Positions 2,096 through 63,605 of a stretch of DNA of 64,000 bases are shown here, in pieces (within the stretch, counting starts at the first letter, position 1; each line of letters starts with the position of its first letter). The notes beneath the pieces were generated by a model. The model saw only the letters and a program-made list of their open reading frames with translations. It was not told the origin of the DNA and did not search any database. The translations under genes and the position numbers were made by a program. The stretch is taken from the NCBI GenBank assembly GCA_036924085.1, contig JAVGWX010000008.1:52421314-52485313 (forward strand), given 5' to 3'. This DNA comes from Ariolimax columbianus (Eukaryota > Mollusca > Gastropoda > Stylommatophora > Arionidae).

Positions 2096-2143
2096 ACCTT
2101 GTTGTTGCTGTTATTGTTGTTGTTATTGTTGGTGTTATTGCCA
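2096..2143. repeat. (TTG/TTA)n microsatellite
   Basis: Imperfect TTG and TTA trinucleotides. In frame they give a leucine/valine run, which explains an 81-codon open frame here and is not evidence of a protein. Confidence 0.8.
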
Positions 2144-2351
2144 CTCGTACTTCAGGTAGGTACTCTTGAGAATTCTCTTCTGTGGCAGGTATCATTGGCT
2201 CTCCTCAGATCCAAAGACGTACTTGAAAACGTGGACTGGTTCCTATGGCTGTACTGCAATGTGCGGCTCTTCAGTATCCAACTCTATAGCCAGACTACCA
2301 CGGAATTGCCTGTTTCCAGAAAGAACAGCTTATAAATGATGTGGGGATCTT

Positions 2352-3075
2352 GATCAGTATGTTCCACCTGGCCCTGACTAACATAGTCTGATCAGTATGT
2401 TCCACCTGGGCCTGACTAACATAGTCTGATCAGTATGTTCCACCTGGGCCTGACTAACATAGTCTGATCAGTATGTTCCTTCTGGGCCTGACTAACATAG
2501 TCTGATCAGTATGTTCCCTCTGGGCCTGACTAACATAGTCTGATCAGTATGTTCCCTCTGGGCCTGACTAACATAGTCTGGTCAGTATGTTCCCTCTGGG
2601 CCTGACTAACATAGTCTGATCAGTATGTTCTCTCTGGGCCTGACTAACATAGTCTGATCAGTATGTTCCCCCTGGGCCTGACTAACATAGTCTGATCAGT
2701 ATGTTTCACCCCACCCTGACTAACATAGTCTGATCAGTATGTTCCCTCTGGGCCTGGCTAACATAGTCGGATCAATATGTTCCCTCTGGCCCTGACTAAC
2801 ATAGTCTGATCAGCATGTTCCCTCTGGCCCCGACTAACATAGTCTGATCAGTATATTCCCTCTGGCCCTGACTAACATAGTCTGATCAGTATGTTCCCTC
2901 TGGCATTGACTAACATAGTCTGATCAGCATGTTCCCTCTGGCCCTGACTAACATAGTCTGATCAGTATGTTCCACCTGGCCCTGAATAACATAGTCTGAT
3001 CAGCATGTTCCCTCTGGCCCCGACTAACATAGTCTGATCAGTATCTTCCCTCTGGCCCTGACTAACATAATCTAA
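2352..3075. repeat. Minisatellite, 38-bp unit, about 19 copies (SINE-B-derived)
   Basis: The unit contains CTGATCAGTATGTTC followed by CTGACTAACATAGT and repeats every 38 bp, with copies differing at a few sites. The same unit, also at 38 bp, forms the array at 43,495-43,985, which lies inside a SINE-B copy, and a 37-bp version occurs at 47,615-47,762. The array ends beside a sequence resembling the reverse of the SINE-B 5' end. Confidence 0.9.
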
Positions 3076-3125
3076 TAACTTTGATTTGTCTGACCGGACA
3101 TGAGTCTAGGTTACGGTTTGTTTAG
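3076..3125 (-). mobile_element. SINE-B 5'-end remnant
   Basis: GTCTGACCGGACATGAGTCT resembles the reverse complement of the SINE-B start (ACTAACGTCTGGTCAGGC). It is short, but its position at the array edge fits an array grown out of a minus-strand SINE-B. Confidence 0.4.
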
Positions 3126-3839: not shown

Positions 3840-4596
3840 AGGTGGCATTTATTTTGATCAGTATAATGAGTTTAATGTAAATAAATGTACACTTATCCAC
3901 ATGGAAAGATCCAATATGGAACATAATTACGGAATAGGCGAGAATAATATTAGAAAGATAGATAATGAAAGAGAGATAGGGGTTATAATTGATCATAGAG
4001 GTAATGTGTGAGCAAGTCCAGGTAGCAGTGAAAAAGGCAAATAAAATATTAGGTATGATAAAAAGAAATATTAAACGTAGGAGCAAGGAAGTGATAGTCA
4101 AACTGTATAAAGCATTAGTTAGACCTAGATTGGAGTACTGTGTACAGGTGTGGAGTCCTTATCATAGAGGGGATATAAATATGCTGGAAAGAATACAAAA
4201 AAGAACGACAAAGCGGATAGTGGGATTCCAGAATTACAGTTATGAGGAAAGACTCAGAAAAACCGGCCTACAGTGTCTAGAAAAGAGAAGAATTCGAGGT
4301 GACAATATAGACTTATAAGGTAATCAAAGGAAAGGATAAATTAGACTATAACAAGTTTTTCAAAATACAACCATCTACAAGAGCAAGAGGGCATAGCTAC
4401 ACATTAACTAAAGAGAGGTCCAGATTAGACATTATGAATTATTTGTGTGGTCAGATAGTGGTGAATGCTTGGAATGCATTTCCACAGGAGATAGTGGAGG
4501 CAGGGACAATTAATGCATTTAGTAATAAATTGGAAGCGCATAGCTTTTAGAGCCAGAAAATGTAAATTAAACTCGTTGTATACAGACTCTGCAGAG
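3840..4596 (+). pseudogene. LINE-D reverse transcriptase C-terminus (CR1/L2-like), 5'-truncated and frameshifted
   Basis: The remnant encodes the end of a non-LTR reverse transcriptase. Frame 1 (to about 4011) has EFNVNKCTLIHM, the region after the catalytic palm. A second frame (3989-4318) has VVK-like LYKALVRPRLEYCVQVWSP and YEERLRKTGLQCLEKRR, the thumb signature of CR1/L2-like LINEs. A third frame (about 4320-4550) has RGHSYTLTKERSRLD and VVNAWNAFPQEIVEAG, ending at TAG 4548-4550. At least two frameshifts separate these blocks, and the endonuclease and palm are missing, so it is dead. It resumes at 5259 after an inserted LINE-H fragment. Family assignment comes from motif recognition and the clade is not certain. 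Confidence 0.88.
4584..4596. repeat. Target-site duplication of LINE-H (left copy)
   Basis: AGACTCTGCAGAG at 4584-4596 is repeated exactly at 5246-5258 on the other side of the LINE-H fragment. Removing the insert and one copy restores the LINE-D 3' sequence seen in other copies (ACTCTGCA-AGTCTTCTAAACCAG at 5840-5860). Confidence 0.88.
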
Positions 4597-5245
4597 ACAC
4601 ATAAAGAAAATGTAAGCCATATAGTCCTGCTTACAGATGCTCTCGCCGTAGTCACAGCGCTAAAAAGCCAGAAAAACACTGAGCTTAATGACTTAAGAGC
4701 AGCACTCTGCAAACTGTGCCAGCAGTCCGCACCAAAAAGGGTAGTGATACAGTGGGTCCCATCACACTGCAACATCCAAGGCAACGAGGAGGCAGACAGA
4801 CTGGTAAAAGACGGTGCAAGACTACCACAAACAGATACTAGTATAACGTACGAAGAGTCAAAACGGCTTATCAAAGCCAGATACATGACCAAATGGGAAA
4901 CCGAACATACTGGTTACACCAAAAACGATGCCTATTACCAGTTGAACCGAAGAGAGCAGGTCGTTGTCTTCAGACTTCGCACTGGCCACAATAGACTGAG
5001 GTACCACCTATTCAACAAATTGAAAATAGGTGGTACCGACGAATGCCCGTGCGGTACCGGTAAAATGACCGCTGAACATCTGCTGCAGAACTGCCCGACA
5101 TACGAGGATCAGAGAGAGCAGATGTGGCCATCACCAGTGGAACTGGTAGACAAGCTCTATGGCAGTGGCGACAGCCTCAGGATGACCGCCGCTTTTTTCG
5201 AAAAAATAATGGTTACTGTCTGACTGCGTACGAAGAAGAAGAAGA
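4597..5245 (+). pseudogene. LINE-H RNase H domain and 3' end, nested in LINE-D
   Basis: An uninterrupted frame runs to the stop near 5223. It contains the RNase H pieces LLTDALAVVTAL and VIQWVPSHCNIQGNEEADRL (the catalytic acidic residue and the His-x-GNE-x-AD block), followed by FRLRTGHNRLRYHL and a C-x-C-G...H...C metal-binding-like tail (CPCG, EHLLQNC) typical of I/jockey-type LINEs. In such elements RNase H removes the RNA strand during target-primed reverse transcription. The endonuclease and RT are absent (5' truncation). After the stop the copy ends in an (AAG)n tail, about 5232-5245. It is flanked by a 13-bp direct repeat, so its limits are well defined. Any start codon upstream at 4513 belongs to the host LINE-D and is fortuitous. 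Confidence 0.9.
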
Positions 5246-5303
5246 AGACTCTGCAGAGTCTTATAGACTAATATAAAGATGTTAAGTTAAGTTAGTTCAG
5301 TTA
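5246..5303 (+). mobile_element. LINE-D 3' end with (GTTAA)n tail, resuming after insertion
   Basis: This starts with the right target duplication (5246-5258), continues TCTTATAGACTAATATAAAG and ends in GTTAAGTTAAGTTAG. The pentamer tail marks the 3' terminus and recurs at 5868-5883, 26,248-26,268 and, in reverse, at 10,606 and 11,612. Confidence 0.85.
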
Positions 5304-8404: not shown

Positions 8405-8560
8405 AGGCTATTCACGGCAAAGGTACGTGGTTAAACTCCCATGATCGTCACACTGCAGTCAACCCAACTGTAAATGGATACTTGGAATAAGACTAGGGAA
8501 GTAAAAAGCAGCAAGAAGAGGAAAGGGTCACCACATCTCATACAAGCTGTGATTCAGTTT
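8405..8560 (+). mobile_element. Rep-G (probable SINE 3' body)
   Basis: The block CAGTCAACCCAACTGTAAAT (8456-8475), then AGCAGCAAGAAGAGGAAAGG and CTCATACAAGCTGTG, recurs in the same order at 34,395-34,560 and in reverse at 23,105, 36,515, 45,150 and 50,790. It runs directly into the first unit of the 70-bp satellite, so the satellite unit is the 3' part of this repeat. Confidence 0.75.
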
Positions 8561-10291
8561 ACTTAAGTCTCCAACAACTTCATTCCCTTATAGTAGTGTA
8601 ACTGCTAGCGAACAGACCTTGACTCAGTATACTGGAGTCTCTAACAACTTCATTCCCTTACAGTAGTGTAACTGCTAGCGAACAGACCTTGACTCAGTAT
8701 ACTGTAGTCTCTAACAACTTCATTCCCTTACAGTAGTGTAACTGCTAGCGAACAGACCTTGACTCAGTATACTTAAGTCTCTAGCAACTTCATTCCCTTA
8801 CAGTAGTGTAACTGCTAGCGAACAGACCTTGACTCAGTATACTGGAGTCTCTAACAACTTCCTTCCCTTACAGTAGTGTAACTGCTAGCGGACAGACCTT
8901 GACTCAGTATACTTAAGTCTCCAACAACTTCATTCCCTTACAGTAGTGTAACTGCTAACGGACAGACCTTGACTCAGTATACTGGAGTCTCTAACAACTC
9001 ATTCCCTTACAGTAGTGTAACTGCTAACGGACAGACCTTGACTCAGTATACTGGAGTCTCTAACAACTCATTCTCTTACAGTAGTGTAACTGCTAACGGA
9101 CAGACCTTGACTCAGTATACTTAAGTCTCCAACAACTTCATTCCCTTACAGTAGTGTAACTGCTAGCGAACAGACCTTGACTCAGTATACTTAAGTCTCT
9201 AGCAACTTCATTCCCTTACAGTAGTGTAACTGCTAGCGAACAGACCTTGACTCAGTATACTGGAGTCTCTAACAACTTCCTTCCCTTACAGTAGTGTAAC
9301 TGCTAGCGGACAGACCTTGACTCAGTATACTTAAGTCTCCAACAACTTCATTCCCTTACAGTAGTGTAACTGCTAACGGACAGACCTTGACTCAGTATAC
9401 TGGAGTCTCTAACAACTCATTCCCTTACAGTAGTGTAACTGCTAACGGACAGACCTTGACTCAGTATACTGGAGTCTCTAACAACTCATTCCCTTACAGT
9501 AGTGTAACTGCTAACGGACAGACCTTGACTCAGTATACTTAAGTCTCCAACAACTTCATTCCCTTACAGTAGTGTAACTGCTAGCGAACAGACCTTGACT
9601 CAGTATACTGGAGTCTCTAACAACTTCATTCCCTTACAGTAGTGTAACTGCTAACGGACAGACCTTGACTCAGTATACTTAAGTCTCTAGCAACTTCATT
9701 CCCTTACAGTAGTGTAACTGCTAGCGAACAGACCTTGACTCAGTATACTGGAGTCTCTAACAACTTCCTTCCCTTACAGTAGTGTAACTGCTAGCGGACA
9801 GACCTTGACTCAGTATACTTAAGTCTCCAACAACTTCATTCCCTTACAGTAGTGTAACTGCTAACGGACAGACCTTGACTCAGTATACTGGAGTCTCTAA
9901 CAACTCATTCCCTTACAGTAGTGTAACTGCTAACGGACAGACCTTGACTCAGTATACTTAAGTCTCCAACAACTTCATTCCCTTTCAGTAGTGTAACTGC
10001 TAGCGGACAGACCTTGACTCAGTATACTGGAGTCTCTAACAACTCATTCCCTTACAGTAGTGTAACTGCTAACGGACAGACCTTGACTCAGTATACTGGA
10101 GTCTCTAACAACTCATTCCCTTACAGTAGTGTAACTGCTAACGGACAGACCTTGACTCAGTATACTGGAGTCTCTAACAACTCATTCCCTTACAGTAGTG
10201 TAACTGCTAACGGACAGACCTTGACTCAGTATACTGGAGTCTCTAACAACTCATTCCCTTACAGTAGTGTAACTGCTAGCGGACAGCTGCT
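8553..10291. repeat. Satellite, 69/70-bp unit, about 25 copies, with higher-order structure
   Basis: The unit begins CTTGACTCAGTATACT and ends ACTGCTARCGRACAGAC. Units differ at diagnostic sites (TATACTTAAG or TATACTGGAG; CAACTTCATT, CAACTTCCTT or CAACTCATT; the last is 1 bp shorter, 69 bp). A block of six unit types starting at 8761 recurs at 9179 (418 bp later) and in large part at 9667. The last four units are all 69 bp (23 codons), which creates a 94-codon open frame by arithmetic alone. Confidence 0.95.
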
Positions 10292-14852: not shown

Positions 14853-15065
14853 GGAGGCTGCGTAGCCTAGGGGTGAAGCGTCCGTTTCACAATACCAACG
14901 CACGTAGTTCGAATCACGCTCGTGTCCAGCTTAGCAGAAATGTGTGTTTTAAAATAATGACAACTTCCCGAACTGCACACTTGCCAAGAAAGTTATATTA
15001 GACAAATATGTTGGCAGTTGTAAAAAGCGACAATCTGTAGAGGACGTGCTTCTTACTTTAGCTAC
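14853..15065 (+). mobile_element. SINE-A copy
   Basis: Box A-like TAGCCTAGGGG (14,863-14,873) and a good box B core GTTCGAATC (14,907-14,915), followed by GTGTCCAGCTTAGCAGA and the body block TGCCAAGAAAGTTATATTAG...ATATGTTGGCAGTTGTAA...GAGGACGTGCTTCTTAC. It parallels 1491-1740 along its whole length. Confidence 0.82.
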
Positions 15066-20272: not shown

Positions 20273-20484
20273 TATTATCGATCTAGGCTCAATCGGTGGA
20301 ATCTGATGGTAACGAAGATTGTAGTTCTAGTGTAGAGCGGGAAAGGCATACGATAAAGACATTCATTGAATGAGAGGGTAGAGAGAAGACACGCTCTTAA
20401 GGCGTGAATACTATACACATGGCACGTGTTCCATTCCTGCTCAAGATTGTAGTCGTTTTTATTGATATTTGAGTCATAATATAA

Positions 20485-20836
20485 CCGGGATCAAGATGCA
20501 GAGCAGCGCATGACCTGCAGCGGTCAGCGACCCATAGCTGACTGCTAGCGTCAGGGCCAGCGAACCAGAGCTGCCAAGACCCTTCTACACCTCCACGTGG
20601 TGATCCTGAATAACAGGCTGCAGCAGGGCAGACTGGCTAAGCAGAAGGGATCGAAGAGGGAATGCTAACCCGGTACTAAAAAAAATGCTTGTTGAAGTCG
20701 GATGTGTTGGACCGAAAGATGCAAATATCGCAGTCAAGCTGTAAACTACGACACAACGCGTTCTGTTCTCTGGACTGCATTCTGCTAGTTAGGCCCGTGT
20801 CAGGGTTTGGTAGTGGGAGATTGAGAACGAACGAAG
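20485..20836 (+). mobile_element. SINE-C, near full-length
   Basis: It starts CCGGGATCAAGATG and carries GGCCAGCGAACCAGAGCTGC, ACCCTTCTACACCTCCACG, GGCTGCAGCAGGGCAGACTG and GAAGTCGGATGTGTTGGACC, ending GGGAGATTGAGAACGAACG. The 3' end continues AAGCTAAGCTA instead of the (AAG)n of other copies, a variant shared with 41,718-42,023. The segment TGCAGCGGTCAGCG resembles a tRNA box A, but this is weak. No coding capacity. Confidence 0.85.
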
Positions 20837-25027: not shown

Positions 25028-25205
25028 GTACCGGGATATCCTTCCCTCTTCGATCCCTTCTCCTTAACCAGCCTACTCTGTTGCAACCTGTTATCTAGGA
25101 TCACTCCGTGGAGGTGGAGAAGAGTCTTGGCAGCTCTAGATGGCTGGCCCTGACGCTAGGAATCAGTTTTGGTTCGCTGACCGCTACAGCTCATGCCATG
25201 ATGAG
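25028..25205 (-). mobile_element. SINE-C, truncated copy
   Basis: TACCGGGATATCC, TTCGATCCCTTCTCCTTAAC, CAACCTGTTATCTAGGATCA, GGCCCTGACGCTAGGAATCA and CAGCTCATGCCATGATGAGC are the reverse of the SINE-C 5' half. The 3' half and tail are absent. Confidence 0.82.
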
Positions 25206-25597
25206 CACATAGACACCATTAGTGACATTAAAGCCCGTTCTGAAAGTTATTCATGTTTAAAAGCTCGGAGACGGCAAACATTCAGGTGTTTCAGTGTTAA
25301 TACCTTGCAAACGTTTTAGTAGTAGTAGCGAATGTATCATCATCGAACGGTTTCTGCGAGCTGTTGAGACAGCCTGGAGTATGAGATCTGTTCGCACATC
25401 AGCTAATCAACATCCCGGAGATCCGTTCGCTGCACTCATAGTTCCTCGATGGATACTCACAGAATCGAGGGTTAAACAAAATGTTTCAATTGCTTCCTTC
25501 CGGGCTTTCCGTAATAGACGACTGAGGAAGGTTGTGTATGGGACTAGCAACATCGCAATGTAAAACCCATTACTGCTGTAACCACTTCATGAACGGT
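25206..25597. other. No recognisable feature
   Basis: A short open frame (89 codons at 25,294-25,563) has an evenly mixed composition, but no family signature was seen. It is the least repeat-like frame in this part of the window. Confidence 0.45.
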
Positions 25598-27720: not shown

Positions 27721-27742
27721 AGTATATATATATATATATATA
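27721..27742. repeat. (TA)n microsatellite at SINE-B target
   Basis: An alternating TA run that forms part of the left target-site duplication of the adjacent SINE-B. Confidence 0.95.
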
Positions 27743-27750
27743 CAGTAGGA

Positions 27751-28092
27751 GAGGAGAACTAACGTCTGGTCAGGAAAAATATACTGATACGACATGCTAG
27801 CCAGAGTCAAACAAAACATACTGTCTAAGACCTTGACCTCGGCATCCTAGTAGCCCTCTCTGAAAACAGGCTGCTTTCATGGCAGTCTGGCTGAGATAAG
27901 GGATCGACATGATCCCTGTAGTAGTGAGTGACACGCATATGAAGCAAAGCATAGCACAACCGCCTGGAGGACCCCGGTCCACCTTCATCAGCACTCTCGG
28001 GATGTGAGGAAAGGTACTGCAACCCGCCACTTAACGTCATTTTCAGGGGGTACACAAGAGTAACCTACTCATTGTGGGCATTCCCAACAACA
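27751..28092 (+). mobile_element. SINE-B, full-length with 19-bp target duplication
   Basis: It begins GAGGAGAACTAACGTCTGG, has two to three 38-bp-type units (TACTG-CAGAC, CAAAACATACTG), then GCAGTCTGGCTGAGATAAGG, TGATCCCTGTAGTAGTGAGT, CCTGGAGGACCCCGGTCCAC, CTCGGGATGTGAGGAAAGGT, AACCCGCCACTTAACGTCAT and ends CATTCCCAACAACAAC. The flanking ATATATATATACAGTAGGA occurs at 27,732-27,750 and 28,093-28,111 without a mismatch, so this is a comparatively young insertion. It is the reference copy for the family here. Confidence 0.92.
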
Positions 28093-28302
28093 ATATATAT
28101 ATACAGTAGGAAAACTAAAGTTAGGTTATGTAATATGTTTTACCGGTACTTCCATATGGTTCGGAATGCTGAAGGATGACAAATAGGCATACTCAGACTT
28201 TAAAAACCTTCTACCAAACATTCCTTTGCAGAATGATTAGAGTGCTTTGAACAGACAAAATATGAAATCACCAACTCTTTCAGGAAACCAACCAAGAAGG
28301 TT

Positions 28303-32310: not shown

Positions 32311-32592
32311 TGTTGTTGTTGATGATGTTGTTGTTGGTGATATTGTTGAATGCCCGCGATGAGTATGTTTATTCATTTGGAGGCCCTGACAAAGGCGTTA
32401 CGTGACGGGTTACAATAACTTTAGTCACATCCAGGGGCGTACTCGTAAGGTGGGACGGGGTTCTCCAGAGCCCTTCGGCATTCTCCCGAAATAAATACTC
32501 CGTTTCTGTCAAACTGGACGAGGCGGGATTCGAACCCCGCCAGTTTGGATTGCGAAACGTACGTTTCACCCTTAGGCCACGCTGCCGCCTGT
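32311..32592 (-). mobile_element. Chimeric SINE: SINE-A tRNA head on a SINE-B 3' half
   Basis: Read on the minus strand: GGCAGCGTGGCCTAAGGG (box A, plus positions about 32,567-32,586) and GGGTTCGAATCCC (box B, about 32,526-32,537), the best tRNA-like promoter pair in the window. It then joins GCTCTGGAGAACCCCGTCCC, TGGATGTGACTAAAG, AACCCGTCACGTAACG and GCGGGCATTCAAC with an (AAC)n-type tail. The head matches SINE-A at 1491 and the rest matches SINE-B at 27,751. Confidence 0.82.
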
Positions 32593-32800
32593 GTGTGTTT
32601 GTGTGTGGGTGTGGGTGGGTGTATTATGTGCATGAGTGCATGCATACTTGTATGTTAGTCCGTATGTTTGTCTGTATGTGTGTGTGTGTGTGTATCTGTA
32701 TGTGTGTGTGTGTGTGTTTACGTAAGGGTGTATACATGTGAATGTGTGTATTGTGTGTATGTGTGCGCGCGTGCGTGCGTGCGTACGACGTCCAGCTAGC
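32593..32800. repeat. (TG)n-rich tract
   Basis: Interrupted TG runs with GTATG and GCGTGCGTGCG. Alternating purine-pyrimidine of this kind can adopt Z-DNA. Long open frames on both strands (VCVCVC, THTHTH) are artefacts. Confidence 0.92.
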
Positions 32801-32892: not shown

Positions 32893-32990
32893 GATTTCAA
32901 GGATGGAATACTAATGTCTGGTCATGCAGAACATAATGTTCAGACAATGTTAGTCATAGTAAGGTGAAACATACTGACAATCTGTATACC
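32893..32990 (+). mobile_element. SINE-B 5'-end fragment
   Basis: ACTAATGTCTGGTCATGCAG, CAGACAATGTTAGTC and GTGAAACATACTGAC match the first 90 bases of SINE-B. As at 27,721, a (TA)n run lies just upstream. Confidence 0.65.
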
Positions 32991-36514: not shown

Positions 36515-36612
36515 CATCAAGCCACAGCTTGTGCGAGGTGGGGTGGCCAGTTCCCTCCCTCGTTGCTTTTTCCTTCCCTAACTGTGAGTCAGGTACCCAT
36601 TTACACAGCAGA
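36515..36612 (-). mobile_element. Rep-G copy
   Basis: CAAGCCACAGCTTGTGCGAG, GTGGGGTGGCCAGTTCCCTC, TTGCTTTTTCCTTCCCTAAC and AGGTACCCATTTACA. Reverse orientation of 34,395-34,500. Confidence 0.75.
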
Positions 36613-36654: not shown

Positions 36655-36669
36655 GGATACCAAGAAACG
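36655..36669. repeat. Target-site duplication of SINE-C (left copy)
   Basis: GGATACCAAGAAACG here is repeated exactly at 37,015-37,029, bounding the SINE-C copy. Confidence 0.9.
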
Positions 36670-37014
36670 GGATCAAGATGCTGAGCAGCACATGAGCTGC
36701 AGTGGTCAGCGTGCTAGCGTCAGGGCCAGCGAACCATAGCTGCCAAGACCCTTCTACACCTCCACGCTGTGATCCTGAATAACAGGATGTAGCAGGGCAG
36801 ACTGTCTAAATAGAAGGGATCGAAGAGGGAATGCTAACCCGGTACTAAAAAAATTCTTGCTGAAGTCGGATGTGTTGGACCGAAAGGTGCAAATATCGCA
36901 GCCAAGCTGTAAACTACGACACAACGCATTCCGTTCTCTGGACTACATTTTGCTACTTAAGCTCTTTCAGGGTTTGGTAGCGGGAGATTGAGAACGAACG
37001 AAGAAGAAGAAGAA
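36670..37014 (+). mobile_element. SINE-C, full-length, nested in SINE-A
   Basis: It starts GATCAAGATGCTGAGCAGCA and carries the diagnostic blocks of 20,485-20,836, then ends GAACGAACG(AAG)n. The 15-bp flanking duplication and the simple-sequence tail show target-primed insertion and fix the orientation: the 5' end is GATCAAGATG and the 3' end is (AAG)n. The host sequence on the right continues TATAACAGCCAAATAGG, a SINE-A body. Confidence 0.92.
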
Positions 37015-37095
37015 GGATACCAAGAAACGTATAACAGCCAAATAGGTGGTGGTTGAAAGAAGCGACGTTCTGCAGAGGACATGCTAATTACTTTT
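37015..37095 (+). mobile_element. SINE-A body (host of the nested SINE-C)
   Basis: After the right duplication (37,015-37,029) the sequence reads TATAACAGCCAAATAGGTGG, TTCTGCAGAGGACATGCTAA, matching 1658-1720. Joined to its left half at 36,655 it restores the CTACCAAGAAGC-type motif. Confidence 0.8.
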
Positions 37096-39835: not shown

Positions 39836-40165
39836 GGTTGTTGTTGTTGTTTGGAATACCCATAATGAGTGCGTTTGCTCTTTTGTGCGCCCTGAAAAGA
39901 AAGTTAAGCGACTGGTTCCAGTAGCTTTCCTCACATCCTAGGCGTGCTGATGAAGGTGGTCCGAGGTCCTCCAGACCGTTGTGCTATGCTTAGCTTCATC
40001 TGTGTGTCGCTCACTACTGCAGAATACGTCGATCCCTCACCTCGTTAGCCAGGCTGCCACTGAAAAATCCCGTTTCCAAGGGGGGCTACGAGCAAGTCGA
40101 GGTGAGGTTCTAACATGTCTGATCAGTATGTTGTGCCTGACCACACGTTAGTCTTTCTTACCCTA
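39836..40165 (-). mobile_element. SINE-B, near full-length
   Basis: It starts (minus 3' end) GTTGTTGTTGTTGTTTGG, then GCGCCCTGAAAAGAAAGTTA, CTCCAGACCGTTGTGCTATG, GTGTCGCTCACTACTGCAGA, CTCGTTAGCCAGGCTGCC and the 5' end TGTCTGATCAGTATGTTGTG, GCCTGACCACACGTTAGTC. It has a single 38-bp-type unit. Confidence 0.88.
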
Positions 40166-41717: not shown

Positions 41718-42023
41718 CTTCGTTCGTTCTCAATCTCCCGCTACCAAACTCTGAAAGGGCTTAAGTAGCAGAATGTAGTCCAGAGAACGAAATGCGCTGT
41801 GTCGTAGTTTACAGCTTGATTTCGATATTTGCACCTTTCGGTCCAACACATCCGACTTCAGTAACCAATTTTTGAGTACCGGGTTAGCATTATCTCCTCG
41901 ATCCCTTCTCCTTAGCCAGTCTGCCCTGCTGTAGCCTGTTATCCAGGATCGCCGCGTGAAGGTGTCGAAAGGTCTTGGCAGCTATGGGTCGCTGACCACT
42001 ACTGCTCAGCATCTTGATCCCTG
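41718..42023 (-). mobile_element. SINE-C, near full-length
   Basis: CTTCGTTCGTTCTCAATCTC, CGAAATGCGCTGTGTCGTAG, CACCTTTCGGTCCAACACAT, GAGTACCGGGTTAGCAT, CTTAGCCAGTCTGCCCTGC and GCTCAGCATCTTGATCCC. Its 3' end (left) is preceded by ATCTTAG, giving GAAGCTAAGAT as in the 20,836 copy, not (AAG)n. Confidence 0.87.
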
Positions 42024-43045: not shown

Positions 43046-43244
43046 TCAACCGACATATATGACGACATCACTATCATGAGTGCTATTATACATCAGCTGG
43101 TTAACATCAAGCTTTGCTTTCCTGTTTTAGCACTCTACGCATCGCCAGCAAATGGTTAGGATAATTTGGTTGTAATATGCTTTACTACCGCGAGCAAGGA
43201 CCATTGATTCACCCTCAACTGTTTCCTCTACTATACTCAGTAAA
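43046..43244. other. Unassigned spacer
   Basis: Nothing recognised between LINE-N and SINE-B. Confidence 0.5.
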
Positions 43245-43990
43245 ATGAGTAGGGTACTCTTTTGTGCACCCTGAAAAGGACGTTAAGTGGCGGGTTGCAG
43301 TAGCTTTCTTCATATCCCGAGCGTGCTGATGAAGGTAGACCGGGGTCCTCCAGGTGAATGTGCTATGCTTGGCTCCATCTCCGTGTCGCTCACTACTACG
43401 GGGATCACGTCGAACCTCACATTATTAGACAGACTGTTGTCAACGACAACAGCCCGTTTCCAGGACGACTAACGAGGTCAGATGAGGGTCTTGGGCAGTA
43501 TATTTCTCCTGACCCTGGCTAACATTGTCTGATAGGTGTGTTTTGCCTGACCCTGGCTAACATTGTCTGATAGGTGTGTTTTGCCTGACCCTGGCTAACA
43601 TTGTCTGATAGGTGTGTTTTGCCTGACCCTAACTAACATTGTCTGATAAGTGTGTTTTGCCTGACCCTGGCTAACATTGTCTGATAGGTGTGTTTTGCCT
43701 TACCCTGGCTAACATTGTCTGATAGGTGTGTTTTGCCTGACCCTGGCTAACATTGTCTGATAGGTGTGTTTTGCCTGACCCTAACTAACATTGTCTGATA
43801 GGTGTGTTTTGCCTGACCCTGGCTAACATTGTCTGATAGGTGTGTTTTGCCTGACCCTGGCTAACATTGTCTGATAGGTGTGTTTTGCCTGACCCTGGCT
43901 AACATTGTCTGATAGGTGTGTTTTGCCTGACCCTGGCTAACATTGTCTGATAGGTGTGTTTTGCCTGACCAGACCTTAGTCTCATCGTCC
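43245..43990 (-). mobile_element. SINE-B with expanded 5' region
   Basis: GCACCCTGAAAAGGACGTTA, GGCGGGTTGCAGTAGC, CGGGGTCCTCCAGG, GTGTCGCTCACTACTACGGG, AACGACAACAGCCCGTTTCC, then about twelve 38-bp units and the 5' end CCTGACCAGACCTTAGTCTC. The whole element is about 750 bp against 342 bp for the copy at 27,751, and the difference is the array. Confidence 0.9.
43495..43985. repeat. Minisatellite, 38-bp unit, about 12 copies, inside SINE-B
   Basis: TGATAGGTGTGTTTTGCCTG followed by ACCCTGGCTAACATTGTC, copies nearly identical (GGCTAAC or AACTAAC). It is homologous to the 2352-3075 unit and has the same 38-bp length. Confidence 0.95.
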
Positions 43991-44039
43991 TACTATAGTC
44001 AGTGAAACTAATTATAATGATATGTTCTTTGAACGGCAA

Positions 44040-44285
44040 ACACGGTGCATAAGGCATAATCAAGTGTTCTCCAGTTTGTGTAGTGAACGACACGCCATGC
44101 ATAGTACAACCGCCTGTTAGGACCATGGTCCACCGTCATTACCACGCTCGGAATGTGAGAAAAGCTTCTGCAACCCGTCACTTAACTTCCTTTTCAGGGC
44201 GCACAAAAGAGAAAACCTACTCATTATGGGCACTCACAAACGGCAACAACAACGACAACAACAACAACAACAACTGTGTAACACT
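44040..44285 (+). mobile_element. SINE-B, 5'-truncated, (AAC)n tail
   Basis: GAACGACACGCCATGCATAG, AACCGCCTGTTAGGACCATG, AACCCGTCACTTAACTTCC, TACTCATTATGGGCACTC and a tail of CAACAACAACGACAACAAC. Confidence 0.87.
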
Positions 44286-45265: not shown

Positions 45266-45394
45266 CAGCAGCGGATGTCACATGACGCTGGTAGAGATAA
45301 TAAAGGCAATGCAATCGTTAAATGAACTGGTAATCTACTAACAAACAAACAAAATTGAGATATTACGCAATATTTAAGTATTCACTACTTAATC
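45266..45394. other. Unassigned spacer
   Basis: Nothing recognised. Confidence 0.5.
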
Positions 45395-45690
45395 ATGGCA
45401 ACCTGGCTAACGAGGGGGTGGGGGTGGGGTGGGCTGTGGGTGGGGGTTGAATCGACGTGATCCCCATATTAGTGAGCGGAGAACAGATGAAATCAAGCAT
45501 AACACAACCGCTTGGAGGACCTCGGTCCACCTTCTTCAATACGCTCGGGATATGAGGAAAGCTACTGCAACCGACCAGTTAACGCCGTTTTCAAGGCACA
45601 TGGGAGTAATCTTGCTCGTTGGGGATATTCAACAACAACAGCAGCAGCAACAGCAGCAACAACAACGACAACAACAACTTCATTCACAAC
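45395..45690 (+). mobile_element. SINE-B, 5'-truncated, long CAR-type tail
   Basis: GGCAACCTGGCTAACGAGGG, ATCGACGTGATCCCCATATT, GCTTGGAGGACCTCGGTCCA, GCTCGGGATATGAGGAAAGC and a tail mixing CAACAACAAC with CAGCAGCAG (45,629-45,680). A G-rich run (GGGGGTGGGGGTGGGGTG) at 45,415-45,435 lies within its 5' part. Confidence 0.87.
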
Positions 45691-47599: not shown

Positions 47600-48022
47600 G
47601 TCAGTGTTAAGATGCTAGTCCGGTCAGGTACAACATACTGACCAGGACGTCGTGTCAGGGTCAGGCGCAATATACTGACCACGACGTCCCGTCAGAGTCA
47701 GGCACAACATACTGACCAGGAAGTCGTGTCAGGGTCAGGCGCAATATACTGACCAAGACCACACTCTCTATTTAATGTAGCGTTCCGTGAAAAGAGGCTG
47801 TTTTCAAGGCAGTCTGGCTGACGAAATGTCGACCGATGCGATCCCCACAGTAGTGAGCTTCACGCAGATGAAGCCAAGCATACCCAATCGCCTGGAGGAC
47901 CGCGGTCTACTTTTATCAGCACGATCGGGACATGAGGAAATCTACGACAACCCGCCACTTAATGTCTTTTTCAGGGCGCACAAAGGTGTACTTACTCATT
48001 GTGGACATTAAAAAAAAACCAA
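47600..48022 (+). mobile_element. SINE-B with small 37-bp array near its 5' end
   Basis: Units GTCAGGCGCAATATACTGAC and GTCAGGTACAACATACTGAC (47,615-47,762, four copies; CGCAATATACT at 47,666 and 47,740, that is two units of 37 bp) precede GCGTTCCGTGAAAAGAGGCT, GGCAGTCTGGCTGACGAAAT, CCTGGAGGACCGCGGTCTAC, CCGCCACTTAATGTCTTTTT and an A-rich end. Confidence 0.88.
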
Positions 48023-50584: not shown

Positions 50585-50790
50585 AAACAACAAGTCAAGG
50601 TTTCTCCCATAGTACTGTCTGGTGATTTAAGTTGTTAGAGACTTTAGTATACTATGCTAAGGTTTGTCCCATAATAGTTAAACTACCGTCAGAGGATTTA
50701 GATTGTTAGAAACTTCAATATACGAAGTCAAGGTTTTTCACATAGTAGTTAAACTACTGTCAGGCGATTTAAGTTGAAAGCGACTTCAAC
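50585..50790 (-). repeat. Three 70-bp units of the Rep-G satellite
   Basis: The reverse complement reads TTGACTTCGTATATTGAAGT, TTCTAACAATCTAAATCC, GACGGTAGTTTAACTA three times, matching the unit at 8553-10,291. Units are about 25% diverged, so older and unhomogenised. Confidence 0.82.
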
Positions 50791-50960
50791 ATACTGCCAC
50801 AGCTTGTATGAGGTTGTATGACTAGTTCCTTTTGTTGCTGTCTTTTACTTTCCTAGTCATATGTCAGATACCCATTTACAACTGGGTCAATTAAACGTGA
50901 CTACTATTTACCGAGCAGTGAATCAAAACCACTCGGCTATTCGCACCTCGATCAATTTTG
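50791..50960 (-). mobile_element. Rep-G copy
   Basis: CCACAGCTTGTATGAGGTTG, TGCTGTCTTTTACTTTCCTA, CAGATACCCATTTACAACTG, continuous with the 70-bp units on its left, the mirror of 8405-8560. Confidence 0.8.
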
Positions 50961-59803: not shown

Positions 59804-60185
59804 TCTTCTTCTTCTTCTTCTTCTTCTTCTTCTTCTTCTTCGTTCGTTCTCAATCTCCCACTACCAAACCCTGAAAGGGTAAGTAGCAGAATGTAGTCCA
59901 GAGAACGAGGTGTGTTGTGTTGTAGTTTACAGCTTGGCTGCGTTATTTGCACCTTTCGTTCCAACACATCCGACTTCAGCAAGCATTTGTTTAGTACCGG
60001 GTTAACATTTCCTCTTCGATCCCTTCTCCTTAGTCAGTCTGCCCTGCTGCAGCCTGTTATCCAGGATCACCGGGTGGAGGTGTAGAAGAGTCTTGGCAGC
60101 TCTGGTTCGCTGGCCCTGACGATAGCAGTCAGCTATGGGTCGCTGACCAATGCAGCTCATGCGCTGCTCAGCATCTTGATCCCGG
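59804..60185 (-). mobile_element. SINE-C, near full-length, inserted in LINE-J
   Basis: (CTT)n at 59,804-59,840 (its (AAG)n tail), CGTTCGTTCTCAATCTCCCA, GGTGTGTTGTGTTGTAGTTT, CACATCCGACTTCAGCAAGC, TTAGTACCGGGTTAACATTT, GTTATCCAGGATCACCGGGT, GGCCCTGACGATAGCAGTCA and GCTCAGCATCTTGATCCCGG. It splits the LINE-J coding sequence. Flanks GGTTTTGAGT (59,795-59,804) and GGTCTTGACT (60,184-60,193) match at 8 of 10 and may be an aged target duplication. Confidence 0.9.
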
Positions 60186-60395
60186 TCTTGACTGAGTGGT
60201 AATGGAAGGTATGGTGCCGGGCATGAGAGAAGCAGAGGCAGACCAAGAAGGCGATGAAACACAACATGTTAAGGAATGTTTGGGCATGACTAGGCGCAGA
60301 CTGGAGATTTGGCAAGAGATCGAGTTTCTTTCAGACGGTCTGAGATGTAAGTTACGTTTTTCATAGGTCATGCTACATGATGATGATATGAAATT
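60186..60395 (+). pseudogene. LINE-J C-terminal module, right part
   Basis: VVMEGMVPGM, then REAEADQEGDETQ (a shifted GRGRPRRRW), then MTRRRLEIWQEIEFLSDG and an acidic DDDMKLL-type end near 60,395. The frame moves several times. With 59,525-59,803 it forms the 3' end of a single LINE-J copy. Confidence 0.78.
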
Positions 60396-60735: not shown

Positions 60736-60974
60736 GTAGACGAACCTTACTTTAAATCATGACATGTTTTGTTTTGTTTTTGAGACAACAGGTGTCAGTA
60801 TTTGAAACATGAAAAAGTCTCGCTAGTAACGACTGTTTCTACAAAATGTCAGCTCTTTAGGTTATGGGGAAGTTGGTTAGAAAAGGAAACATAGAAGTCC
60901 ACGCAAACAGATAACGGTCATGTAGAGTTAAACAGAAGCCTGTACACAAATTCTTCTGGACAAAAATAAATATG

Positions 60975-61675
60975 CTAAACCTGGTCTACAGAAGTTATCT
61001 TAACCTGGTCCACGAAAGATATCTTAACCTGGTCCACAGAAGTTATCTTAACCTGGTCCACAGAAGTTATCTTAACCTGATCCACATAAGTTAGCTTAAC
61101 CTGGTCCATGAAAGTTACCTTAACCAGGTCCACGAAAGTTACCTTAACCTGGTCCCCAGAAGTTATCTTAACCTGGTCCACAGAAGTTATCTTAACCTGA
61201 TCCACAGAAGTTAGCTTAACCTGGTCCACAGAAGTTAGCTTAACCTGATCCACAGAAGTTAGCTTAACCTGGTCCACAGAAGTTAGCTTCACCTGGTCCA
61301 CGAAAGGTACCTTAACCTGGTCCATGAAAGTTACCTTAACCTGGTCCACAGAAGTTAGCTTAAACTGGTCCACAGAAGTTAGCTTACTCTCGTCCACGAA
61401 AGGTACCTTAACCTGGTCCACGAAAGTTACCTTATCCTGGTCCACGAAAGTTACCTTATCCTGGTCCACAGAAGTTATCTTAACCTGGTCCACGAAAGGT
61501 ACCTTAACCTGGTCCACGAAACTTACCTTATCCTGGTCTACAGAACTTAGCTTAACCTGGTCCACAGAAGTGAGCCTAACCTGGTTCACAGAAGTGAGCT
61601 TAACCTGGTCCACAGAGTTAGCTTAACCTGGTCCACAGAAGTTAGCTTAACCTGGTCCACGAAAGTTACCTTAAC
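60975..61675. repeat. Minisatellite, 24-bp unit, about 29 copies
   Basis: AACCTGGTCCACAGAAGTTATCTT, with CACGAAAGTTACC and AGTTAGC subtypes intermixed. 24 bp is 8 codons, so the minus strand (VDQVKLTS) and plus strand both stay open for over 100 codons without implying a protein. Confidence 0.96.
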
Positions 61676-61679
61676 CAAG

Positions 61680-61925
61680 GGGAGAGGAGACTAACGTCTG
61701 GTCAGGCAAAACATAACTGATCAGACAATGTTAGGATAATAGGTGGAAATTGACGTGATCTCCATAGTAGTGAGCGTCACGCAGATGAAACGAAGCAAAG
61801 CCCAACAATCTGGAGGACCCCGGTCTAGCACTCTCGGGATGTGAGGAAAGCGTCTACAACAATTTGTAGAGTGCAAATAAAGAGTCAACGTACTCTTCGT
61901 GATTATTCAGCAACAACAACCTGAT
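61680..61925 (+). mobile_element. SINE-B copy abutting the 24-bp array
   Basis: GAGAGGAGACTAACGTCTGG, CAGACAATGTTAGG, GTAGTGAGCGTCACGCAGAT, GGAGGACCCCGGTCTAGCAC, CGGGATGTGAGGAAAGCG and CAACAACAAC. It lacks most of the 38-bp unit region and part of the middle (CCACTTAACG block). Confidence 0.85.
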
Positions 61926-62215
61926 AGAAGGACCCAACATTAACAATAACAACATGATACAAAGACCCAACATTAAGGTCAACAACATGATACAAGGACC
62001 CAACATGTTAACAACAACATAATAATACAAGGAGTCAATATTAACAACAACATGTTAACAACAACAACATGTTAACAACAACAACATGATACAAGGACCC
62101 AACATAAACAATAAACAACAAAAACCTTCAACAAGGACCCAACATTAACAACAACAACAACATGATAAAGGATCCAACATTAACAACAACAACAACCTTA
62201 TACAAGGACCCACCA
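61905..62215. repeat. Imperfect AAC-rich array
   Basis: AACAACATGATACAAGGACC, CAACATTAACAACAAC and shorter AAC runs repeat at irregular spacing of about 30 to 50 bp. It starts at the (AAC)n tail of the preceding SINE-B. Confidence 0.88.
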
Positions 62216-62604
62216 TCATGCTAACACAAGTTTGTTTTTTTCCATTCACAAATGCGTACTCTTTTCAACTACATTTATTCGAGAATCTATACATATATTT
62301 GCTGATCTCACATTTTTACCTTAAAGCTGTAGTTGCTATTACATCAAGTTGCTAATGTACTCATGAATCCTATTGCGTCATTCAAATTTGCCATCATTCT
62401 GTCATTATAACAGCCAGAGAAATGGGGAACATATTTAAATCGTGAAATACGGGTCATATCTGTCCTGAGACCCGACAATCTAGAGCGAATATATCAATTT
62501 AATAGGATTGTCGAAAGATTGAATTCTAGGCCGGAAATGATTATGTTAATGAATCTATAGTCCCAGAAAAGACGTACTCAAATTTTAGAGAATAGAGTCG
62601 TCGG
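62216..62604. other. No recognisable feature
   Basis: Spacer before the inverted repeat. Confidence 0.5.
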
Positions 62605-62876
62605 GTCTTATTACGTCCAACCACAAGATGGCCGACCTAACTGGGATAAACCAGTGTCGTTAAGGGCAATGTAAACAAACAGAAACATTGACACTCCCTT
62701 GTCATATAACCTTGAACTTTAACCGCAAGCAACCTAAAGTACCCAAATACATTATTACCTGTACGCAGAAGCAGACCATGACAGACTTCGACCATTTTAA
62801 GTATTCTTATTTACAGGGACACGACAAAATAATCGCAGCACAGAAACAAGATGCAAACTAAATAAATGTTCTAGAA
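62605..62876 (+). repeat. Long inverted repeat, left arm
   Basis: About 272 bp from GTCTTATTACGTCCAACC to AACTAAATAAATGTTCTAGAA is repeated in reverse at 63,333-63,605, with about nine differences by eye. The whole inverted repeat is about 1 kb and encloses a hAT-like element. Confidence 0.92.
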
Positions 62877-63340: not shown

Positions 63341-63605
63341 CATTTTTTTTAGTTTGCATCTTGTTTCTGGGCTGCGGTTATTTTGTCGTGTCCCTGTAAA
63401 TAAGAATACTTAAAAGGGTTGAAGTCTGTCATGGTCTGCTTCTGCGTACAGGTAATAATATATGTGGGTACTTTAGGTTGCTTGCGGTTAAAGTTCAAGG
63501 TTATATGACAAGGGAGTGTCAATGTTTCTGTTTGTTTACCTTGCCCTTAACGACACTGGTTTATCCCAGTTAGGTCGGCCATCTTGTGGTTGGACGTAAT
63601 AAGAC
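63333..63605 (-). repeat. Long inverted repeat, right arm
   Basis: Reverse complement of 62,605-62,876, ending CGTAATAAGAC at 63,605. Flanks of the whole inverted repeat (left TAGAGTCGTCGG, right GGTGTGAGGGCG) show no clear duplication. Confidence 0.92.

Follow-up and report, generated by a model that had tools for sequence, protein, structure and literature searches.

Tandem arrays derived from SINEs have been published for mouse (B1, in 1998; described in PMC9659126), squamates (PMC10702118) and a limpet (PMC11121367). In mouse B1, as in the element studied here (SINE-B), a dimer inside a SINE expands to a family of unstable tandem arrays, although the mouse motif is a hexamer (a GAGGCA dimer, (GGCAGA)n), whereas SINE-B has a 37–38-bp pair at its 5' end, resides in a mollusc and includes several subfamilies with different units (PMC9659126). 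The squamate SINE-derived satellites likewise repeat a portion of a SINE in tandem and in most cases retain a SINE terminus at one end, and the same paper cites SINEs with internal duplications of about 30 nt. They derive from tRNA-related SINEs, of which its authors report no true dimeric form, and show a subtelomeric preference, whereas the usual SINE-B copy carries the pair (PMC10702118). The PcH-sat of Patella, from Nin-SINE, resembles the present arrays in being a gastropod tandem repeat of SINE origin, but it has a 179-bp unit that is mainly pericentromeric and matches the 3' part of the Lottia Nin-SINE, in contrast to the short 5'-end units and dispersed insertions of SINE-B (PMC11121367). 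Finally, the oyster Cg_HINE non-autonomous Helentrons are mobile elements with central tandem repeats that spread short satellite-like arrays in a mollusc genome; these are DNA transposons (PMC7492417), whereas the target-site duplications and (CAA)n tail of SINE-B are those of a retroposon mobilised by a LINE.

In this study, we analysed a 64,000-nucleotide stretch of DNA (hereafter the window; C8:52421314–52485313) and searched the 2.29-Gb, 401-contig assembly that contains it, following an earlier note which had proposed, from the letters of the window, that a unit of SINE-B became a minisatellite at three places. The observation was confirmed and its interpretation is supported, with amendments: we consider it very likely that the two-unit head of SINE-B seeds minisatellites at some of its insertion sites, through misalignment over repeated rounds. 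SINE-derived minisatellites were already known, and what is unusual here is that the intermediates are resolved and that the two-unit seed persists through subfamilies. No description of SINE-B itself was found in the titles and opening abstract lines of the papers listed by literature searches, the element carrying no name to search by.

The three arrays and their SINE-B hosts

The SINE-B consensus is 354 bp long and has a (CAA)n tail. Its 5' end consists of GGGGAGGAAGACTAACGTCT, then a full 37–38-bp unit, GGTCAGGCAAAATATACTGATCAGACATGTTAGTCAG, and then a second unit, of which the first two-thirds are present and lead into the body, so that every insertion delivers two imperfect direct repeats already paired. 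The element is oriented from its array end to its tail; the copy at 39836–40165, when read from left to right, shows the other strand.

All three arrays exist, with TRF limits within 15 bases of those given before. Array A (2351–3073, minus strand) has a period of 38, 19.0 copies and 92% matches; array B (43508–43970, minus strand) has a period of 38, 12.2 copies (12–13 units) and 97% matches; and array C (47622–47759, plus strand), which represents a separate subfamily, has a period of 37, 3.7 copies (~4 units, GGTCAGGCACAACATACTGACCAGGACGTCGTGTCAG) and 82% matches. The core said to be common to their units is borne out by pairwise matches, those between A and B reaching ~75% over 114 bp (best E about 1e-18), with best E values of 9e-8 for A and C and 2e-8 for B and C. 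Arrays B and C had both been placed correctly within SINE-B. The copy holding array B (43242–43989, minus strand; body ~43242–43498; nhmmer E = 1.1e-70) has a target-site duplication, recognised by sequence reading, that brackets body and array and whose two copies, CTACTATACTCAGT (43228–43241) and CTACTATAGTCAGT (43990–44003), are identical at 13 of 14 bases. The copy holding array C occupies 47601–48022 (plus strand; nhmmer match 47749–48019, E = 2.9e-59).

The position of the arrays at one and the same site of the element, which had been claimed for B and C, extends to array A, whose host is a strongly decayed SINE-B of an old subfamily. Directly 3' of array A, in element orientation, nhmmer detects a decayed body (2168–2357, minus strand): a body model from 56 copies at other loci matches this flank (2357–2168) with E = 4.4e-9, and a body profile from eight window copies or tails recovered its own eight and, as a ninth, the array A flank (E = 2e-5). 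Because the flank of array A matches body models as well, each of the three arrays is followed directly, in element orientation, by a SINE-B body. The GTT-rich stretch at 2102–2140 (minus strand; TRF and sequence reading) is the 3' tail, of (CAA)n type, of the element that holds array A, and a probable head remnant, CATGTCCGGTCAGACAAATC..., was read 5' of the array at approximately 3074–3105 (minus strand), with a score of 12.0 that is just under the 99% null of 12.5.

The earlier note had named as counter-evidence a clustering of the three loci apart from dispersed units. Instead, each consensus unit is closer to the consensus of unit 1 in 27 two-unit copies from the genome (A 0.82, B 0.84 and C 0.84 identical) than to those of the other arrays (A–B 0.74, A–C 0.71, B–C 0.71). 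The arrays are unlike one another because the subfamilies appear to carry different units.

Further SINE-B copies in the window comprise a complete two-unit copy at 27750–28092 (plus strand; sequence reading and nhmmer) within an 18-bp target-site duplication (27732–27749 and 28093–28110), the one-unit copy at 39836–40165 (minus strand; nhmmer and sequence reading) that had served as the earlier reference, a one-unit copy with a deletion reaching into the body at 61680–61925 (plus strand; nhmmer), and two copies without the 5' part at 44079–44249 and 45392–45643 (both plus strand; nhmmer). In addition, sequence comparison revealed an isolated two-unit head at 32907–32977 (plus strand), beside which no body was seen. 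From the 25 non-SINE-B arrays of period 20–70 in the window, 0.22 arrays would be expected on six SINE-B heads (0.26 on seven), against the three observed (Poisson P = 0.0015 and 0.0023, respectively), a probability that is optimistic because the case was singled out from the window itself, the genome samples being the better test.

Several features adjoin these copies. The copy at 61680–61925 is flanked by two arrays, of 24-bp and of 33-bp units (60974–62216); the 33-bp unit contains CAACAACAAC, like the SINE-B tail, and its array is perhaps a tail-seeded minisatellite. A 255-bp inverted repeat (62605–62859 and 63351–63605), 97% identical, surrounds a 2 x 120-bp tandem. A reading of 43245–44250 as an inverted repeat (foldback or MITE), with SINE-B ends face to face, was rejected because the array B copy has its own target-site duplication and the right-hand copy at 44079–44249 is headless.

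Unit number and array frequency in genome samples

First-look searches with two queries gave 8246 and 7786 SINE-B candidates, 40 of which were scored per query. Three samples were chosen by body-only queries, so that array state had no influence on the choice, the copies being found by their intact bodies: a young sample (Y), relatives of the array C body (C; 240 bp upstream included) and relatives of the decayed array A body (O). For each, 40 of 7786 (Y), 86 (C) and 5592 (O) candidates were scored and 30, 20 and 20 fetched, those of C and O out of 39 non-self places each; since the samples hold the copies closest to each query, their rates are not genome-wide rates. Units were counted from head-to-body distance or, in the O and C samples, by sequence reading.

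The single unit at 39836–40165, which had been taken as the norm, is not the usual state. Among the 29 headed copies of the Y sample, 21 have two units (including L030, whose second unit is altered), four have one, and four are arrays, of 10 (L010), 6 (L019), 37 (L020) and 4 units (L028). The 18 copies of the C sample with a head or array include 10 with two units, two with one and six that are expanded (L119 and L129 with 3 units each, L132 with at least 5, and L123, L125 and L136 with at least 6 each), L135 and L138 being truncated. In the O sample a recognisable head or array was present in just 7 of 20 copies: two with two units (L082, L092), four arrays of 8 (L083), 11 (L084), 5–6 (L085, without a clear head) and 10 units (L097), and one array of four copies of a 48-bp head-plus-unit variant (L098). 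Six O copies end at the last unit (L086, L087, L089, L090, L094, L095), and in seven no unit was found beside the body (L079, L080, L081, L088, L091, L093, L096), L080 having one unit about 400 bp away from it. Two units are therefore the most frequent form among young copies and among those of the C subfamily, and the form is present in the old sample too. A further sample, biased by its query, which included a one-unit head, yielded 25 headed copies out of 28, 12 with one unit, 12 with two and one (L045) with three. Neighbouring stretches that had not been selected contained four further arrays (L020 second copy, L036, L037 and L052). As a separate observation, L014, L086, L089, L090 and L095 start at or near the last-unit boundary, CAGGGTCAGG, which may be a recurrent truncation point or an alternative start.

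As a control, 188 kb of non-SINE-B flanks contained 59 arrays of period 20–70, or 0.0256 per 68 bp. Against this rate, arrays of at least three units are in excess on headed copies in all three samples (Y 4/29, P = 0.006; C 6/18, P = 4e-6; O 5/7, P = 2e-7; binomial), and remain so with truncated copies counted (4/30, 6/20 and 5/13; P = 0.007, 7e-6 and 1e-5, respectively), the rate on heads being about 5-fold the flank background in the Y sample and 13-fold in the C sample. Hence the claim that the unit is prone to expansion stands, with the amendment that the seed is the two-unit head and not a single unit; similarly, the retroposon does seed minisatellites, albeit not wherever it lands, as just a fraction of copies expand.

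If expansion continued after insertion, arrays would be commoner in older-looking subfamilies. The samples suggest such a rise, the trend over all three giving P = 0.002, but it becomes weak (P = 0.056) once truncated copies are counted in all three, and decayed two-unit heads, being harder to see than arrays, are easily missed and inflate the old-sample rate; the rise is therefore suggested and not shown. Pairwise, the C and Y rates differ with P = 0.15, and the young and old with P = 0.10 when the six O copies ending at the last unit are counted as non-arrays (5/13).

A contrasting explanation is that there is nothing special about SINE-B, minisatellites arising throughout this genome and an abundant repeat hosting its share of them. 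The genome is indeed minisatellite-rich throughout, with tandem repeats making up 16.6% of the sampled flanks and 21.8% of the window (41 separate minisatellite regions), and for this reason the SINE-B head is not uniquely unstable. Consistent with the same explanation, the one-unit-head-query sample is at background (1/25 headed copies with three or more units, P = 0.47), and another dispersed family, E, seeds arrays from a different segment of 61–70 bp, which means that array seeding is not unique to SINE-B. Two family E arrays occur in the window according to TRF, one of a 70-bp unit (8550–10286, plus strand) that abuts an E flank at 8462–8549 and one of a 71-bp unit x 2.4 (50624–50794, minus strand) that abuts a flank at 50800–50887, and a third flank lies at 36521–36605. 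When genome copies of E were chosen by flank alone (20 fetched of 39 non-self places among the matches listed), seven of the 20 (L100, L101, L108, L110, L113, L116 and L118) carried arrays with units of 61–70 bp at that place. The upstream part of family E looks tRNA-like on reading. Against the view that SINE-B merely hosts its share, the same 68-bp head segment is hit at least 5-fold above the flank rate in three body-selected samples, and we regard that view as rather unlikely. The general tendency to form minisatellites is real and is the probable source of the machinery, with the two-unit head supplying the seed.

Hybrid units and growth within a locus

The consensus of the 27 two-unit copies runs from the head through a 37-bp unit 1 and a partial unit 2 to the body. 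The two units differ in their 3' parts and at position 13, where unit 1 has T in 25 of the 27 copies and unit 2 mostly C, and these differences allow the origin of the units in other copies to be traced. Seven of 16 one-unit copies are unit-1/unit-2 hybrids, because a T-type 5' part is fused to the 3' end of unit 2. Another six are C-type, which fits an exchange further 5' or the plain loss of unit 1 (in one, L006, four more bases are missing), and the remaining three (L030, L044, L050) are other rearrangements. Hybrids of the converse kind are found in expanded copies: L045 consists of unit 1, then a hybrid with a unit-2 5' part and a unit-1 3' part, then unit 2, and in L019 a unit 1 with private mutations occurs three times, ahead of two unit-2/unit-1 hybrids in which private changes of the last unit recur. 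The hybrids in contracted and expanded copies are as expected from slippage or unequal exchange between direct repeats, although descent of the one-unit copies from a one-unit master is a possible alternative. In addition, variants at 33-bp spacing common to L002, L005, L017 and L040 suggest that some head changes may have been inherited via retroposition. With regard to a foldback structure as a conceivable cause of slippage, better folding than in shuffles, which destroy the repeat, was seen for a two-unit stretch (z = -2.9) and for stretches of arrays A (-2.6) and C (-3.7), and not for array B (-0.5) or a single unit (-0.6).

The built-in pair of direct repeats is the likely seed of expansion. 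The pair would misalign at some insertion sites, by replication slippage or unequal exchange, so that a copy either contracts, keeping one hybrid unit, or expands, first to three units and later to more; repeated rounds of this process could generate minisatellites of up to tens of units. The grouping of units by locus that the earlier note had predicted was found in a nearest-neighbour test (655 units of 30 bases; null by label shuffling on the full set). The nearest unit was in the same array for a fraction of 0.81 of the 231 units from the 15 arrays not fetched by unit similarity, and of 0.69 of all 538 units from 37 arrays, compared to 0.034 with labels shuffled (maximum 0.052 in 200). Against this, a raised similarity between adjacent units reached significance in only 8 of 30 arrays, array A included. 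Variants have spread stepwise between the units of one array, as the counts of distinct variants given below show, and expansion probably took place in situ.

An alternative is that arrays were made in one step, at reverse transcription through re-copying of a two-unit RNA, or pasted whole from array-bearing masters. The arrays do lie within the inserted unit, because target-site duplications bracket array B, L028 (4 units) and L045 (3 units), clearly so in the latter two, while convincing duplications were looked for and not found at L010, L019 and L020. Some unit-length variants recur at several loci, L070, L073, L074 and array B are nearly homogeneous, and the weakness of the age trend with truncated copies counted also accords with such an origin. 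What argues for stepwise growth instead is the clustering of units by locus, the propagation of private changes in L019, and the number of distinct variants, which in 20 of 23 arrays tested is lower than a single-step (star) expansion followed by later mutation would give; the L020 second array, L063 and L066 were not below the star expectation, and arrays B and C were outside the test, having too few variants and too few units, respectively. The distinct-variant count was used in place of a shared-variant statistic that was not above the star null in many arrays. On this evidence a one-step or master origin of the arrays is improbable.

Arrays were also retrieved by unit similarity, with a query of three array A units that gave 428 candidates, 40 of which were scored, and 205 matches, representing about 37 separate places among the matches listed. 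Of 20 arrays fetched by the unit alone, 11 had a SINE-B head and 11 a body, and 15 had either above the 99% null, contrary to the possibility, also raised as a potential objection, that arrays of this unit occur mostly without SINE-B flanks. In the four head-only arrays (L059, L061, L063, L078) the head score is just above the null (13.0 vs 12.5), and in L059 part of a SINE-B tail was located on the 3' side of the array besides. Among the matches listed, the units of these loci are 86–96% identical to array A and their bodies mostly 68–78% alike. The idea that units stay unusually similar across loci as the bodies diverge was dropped, because the loci were picked by unit similarity; the window arrays are only 0.71–0.74 alike. 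That a pre-existing minisatellite was captured by SINE-B, or served as its target, is very improbable, for although neither SINE-B end was above the 99% null in five of the 20 arrays (L060, L068, L069, L072, L077), L072 and L077 were accessible from a single side and L069 falls close to the threshold, the unit has a constant position in headed Y and C copies, where it is mostly present once or twice, and array B is inside its target-site duplication.

Classification and significance of SINE-B

SINE-B is probably a LINE-mobilised retroposon. Sequences upstream and downstream of 52 complete genome copies match at a mean of 8.2, compared to 5.1 in mismatched pairs (P = 2e-22), and the target-site match score is at least 7 in 38 of the 52 (null 8.5%) and at least 8 in 31 (null 3.2%). 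The element is short and non-coding, with stops in all six frames of the consensus (the longest open stretch, of 78 codons, is on the antisense strand), and it has target-site duplications and a simple-repeat 3' tail, as expected of a SINE. A Pol III promoter was not recognised: the best score for boxes A and B in the consensus was 12 of 17, no better than 300 shuffles (11–15, mostly 12–13), whereas two tRNA-headed elements in the window scored 16 and 15, and Rfam gave no tRNA, 5S or 7SL match at E 5 to the two-unit copy L016 (411 bases). 'SINE-like' is therefore a safer name than 'SINE'. The arrays themselves conform to SINE-derived minisatellites in that their unit comes from a segment of a dispersed retroposon, with element ends attached, and is homogenised within loci. 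Helitrons and Helentrons are not known to generate target-site duplications, and SINE-B, having duplications, does not belong with them. A search for the SINE-B tail among viral contigs gave no match.

SINE-B has a core in common with a dispersed SINE-like family, D, present in the window at 20484–20836, 25028–25207, 36668–37026, 41718–42021 and 59842–60186; the shared core is 50 bp long, and four of the five D copies beat all 1000 shuffles. In addition, the SINE-B tail domain adjoins a tRNA-like head in a chimaeric SINE at 32337–32600 (tail domain 32337–32469, minus strand; head about 32480–32600). Because of this common core and the tail domain on a tRNA-like head, SINE-B belongs to a modular set of retroposons. 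The tRNA-like head of the chimaera is related to 1490–1720 and 14854–15056. Two window copies of family D have an AAG-rich tail, and on reading its head seems to comprise two imperfect units, with the copy at 41.7 kb resembling a one-unit hybrid. A non-LTR element with an RNase H reading frame (4513–5223) lies at 4513–5251, and its 3' end, ACGAAG(AAG)n, is similar to the tail of family D, a likeness which makes it a possible partner LINE of that family. Of 50 relatives of this reading frame, three bear an organism name, and each of these is a gastropod.

Tandem units within a retroposon are found also in mouse L1, which has tandem monomers at its 5' end, and in human SVA, which has a VNTR, and the monomers of mouse L1 drive transcription. 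By analogy, the 5' units of SINE-B could be putative promoter monomers of a SINE-like retroposon without boxes A and B, two of them being kept through subfamily turnover as drivers of transcription. We rate this as a speculative reading with a small chance of being correct; if it were true, the seeding of minisatellites would be a side effect of promoter selection, and the arrays may act as expandable promoters.

With the two-unit head as the likely seed, SINE-B represents a clear path by which a mobile element gives rise to minisatellites, one that can be counted and in which each insertion is an independent trial. Copies with one hybrid unit, two units, three units and long arrays coexist in one genome, and because the seed duplication is in the usual copy and the intermediates coexist, the birth rate and mechanism of minisatellites are measurable over many replicate loci of differing age. 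Potentially, seeding by SINE-B may also help explain the richness of this genome in tandem repeats.
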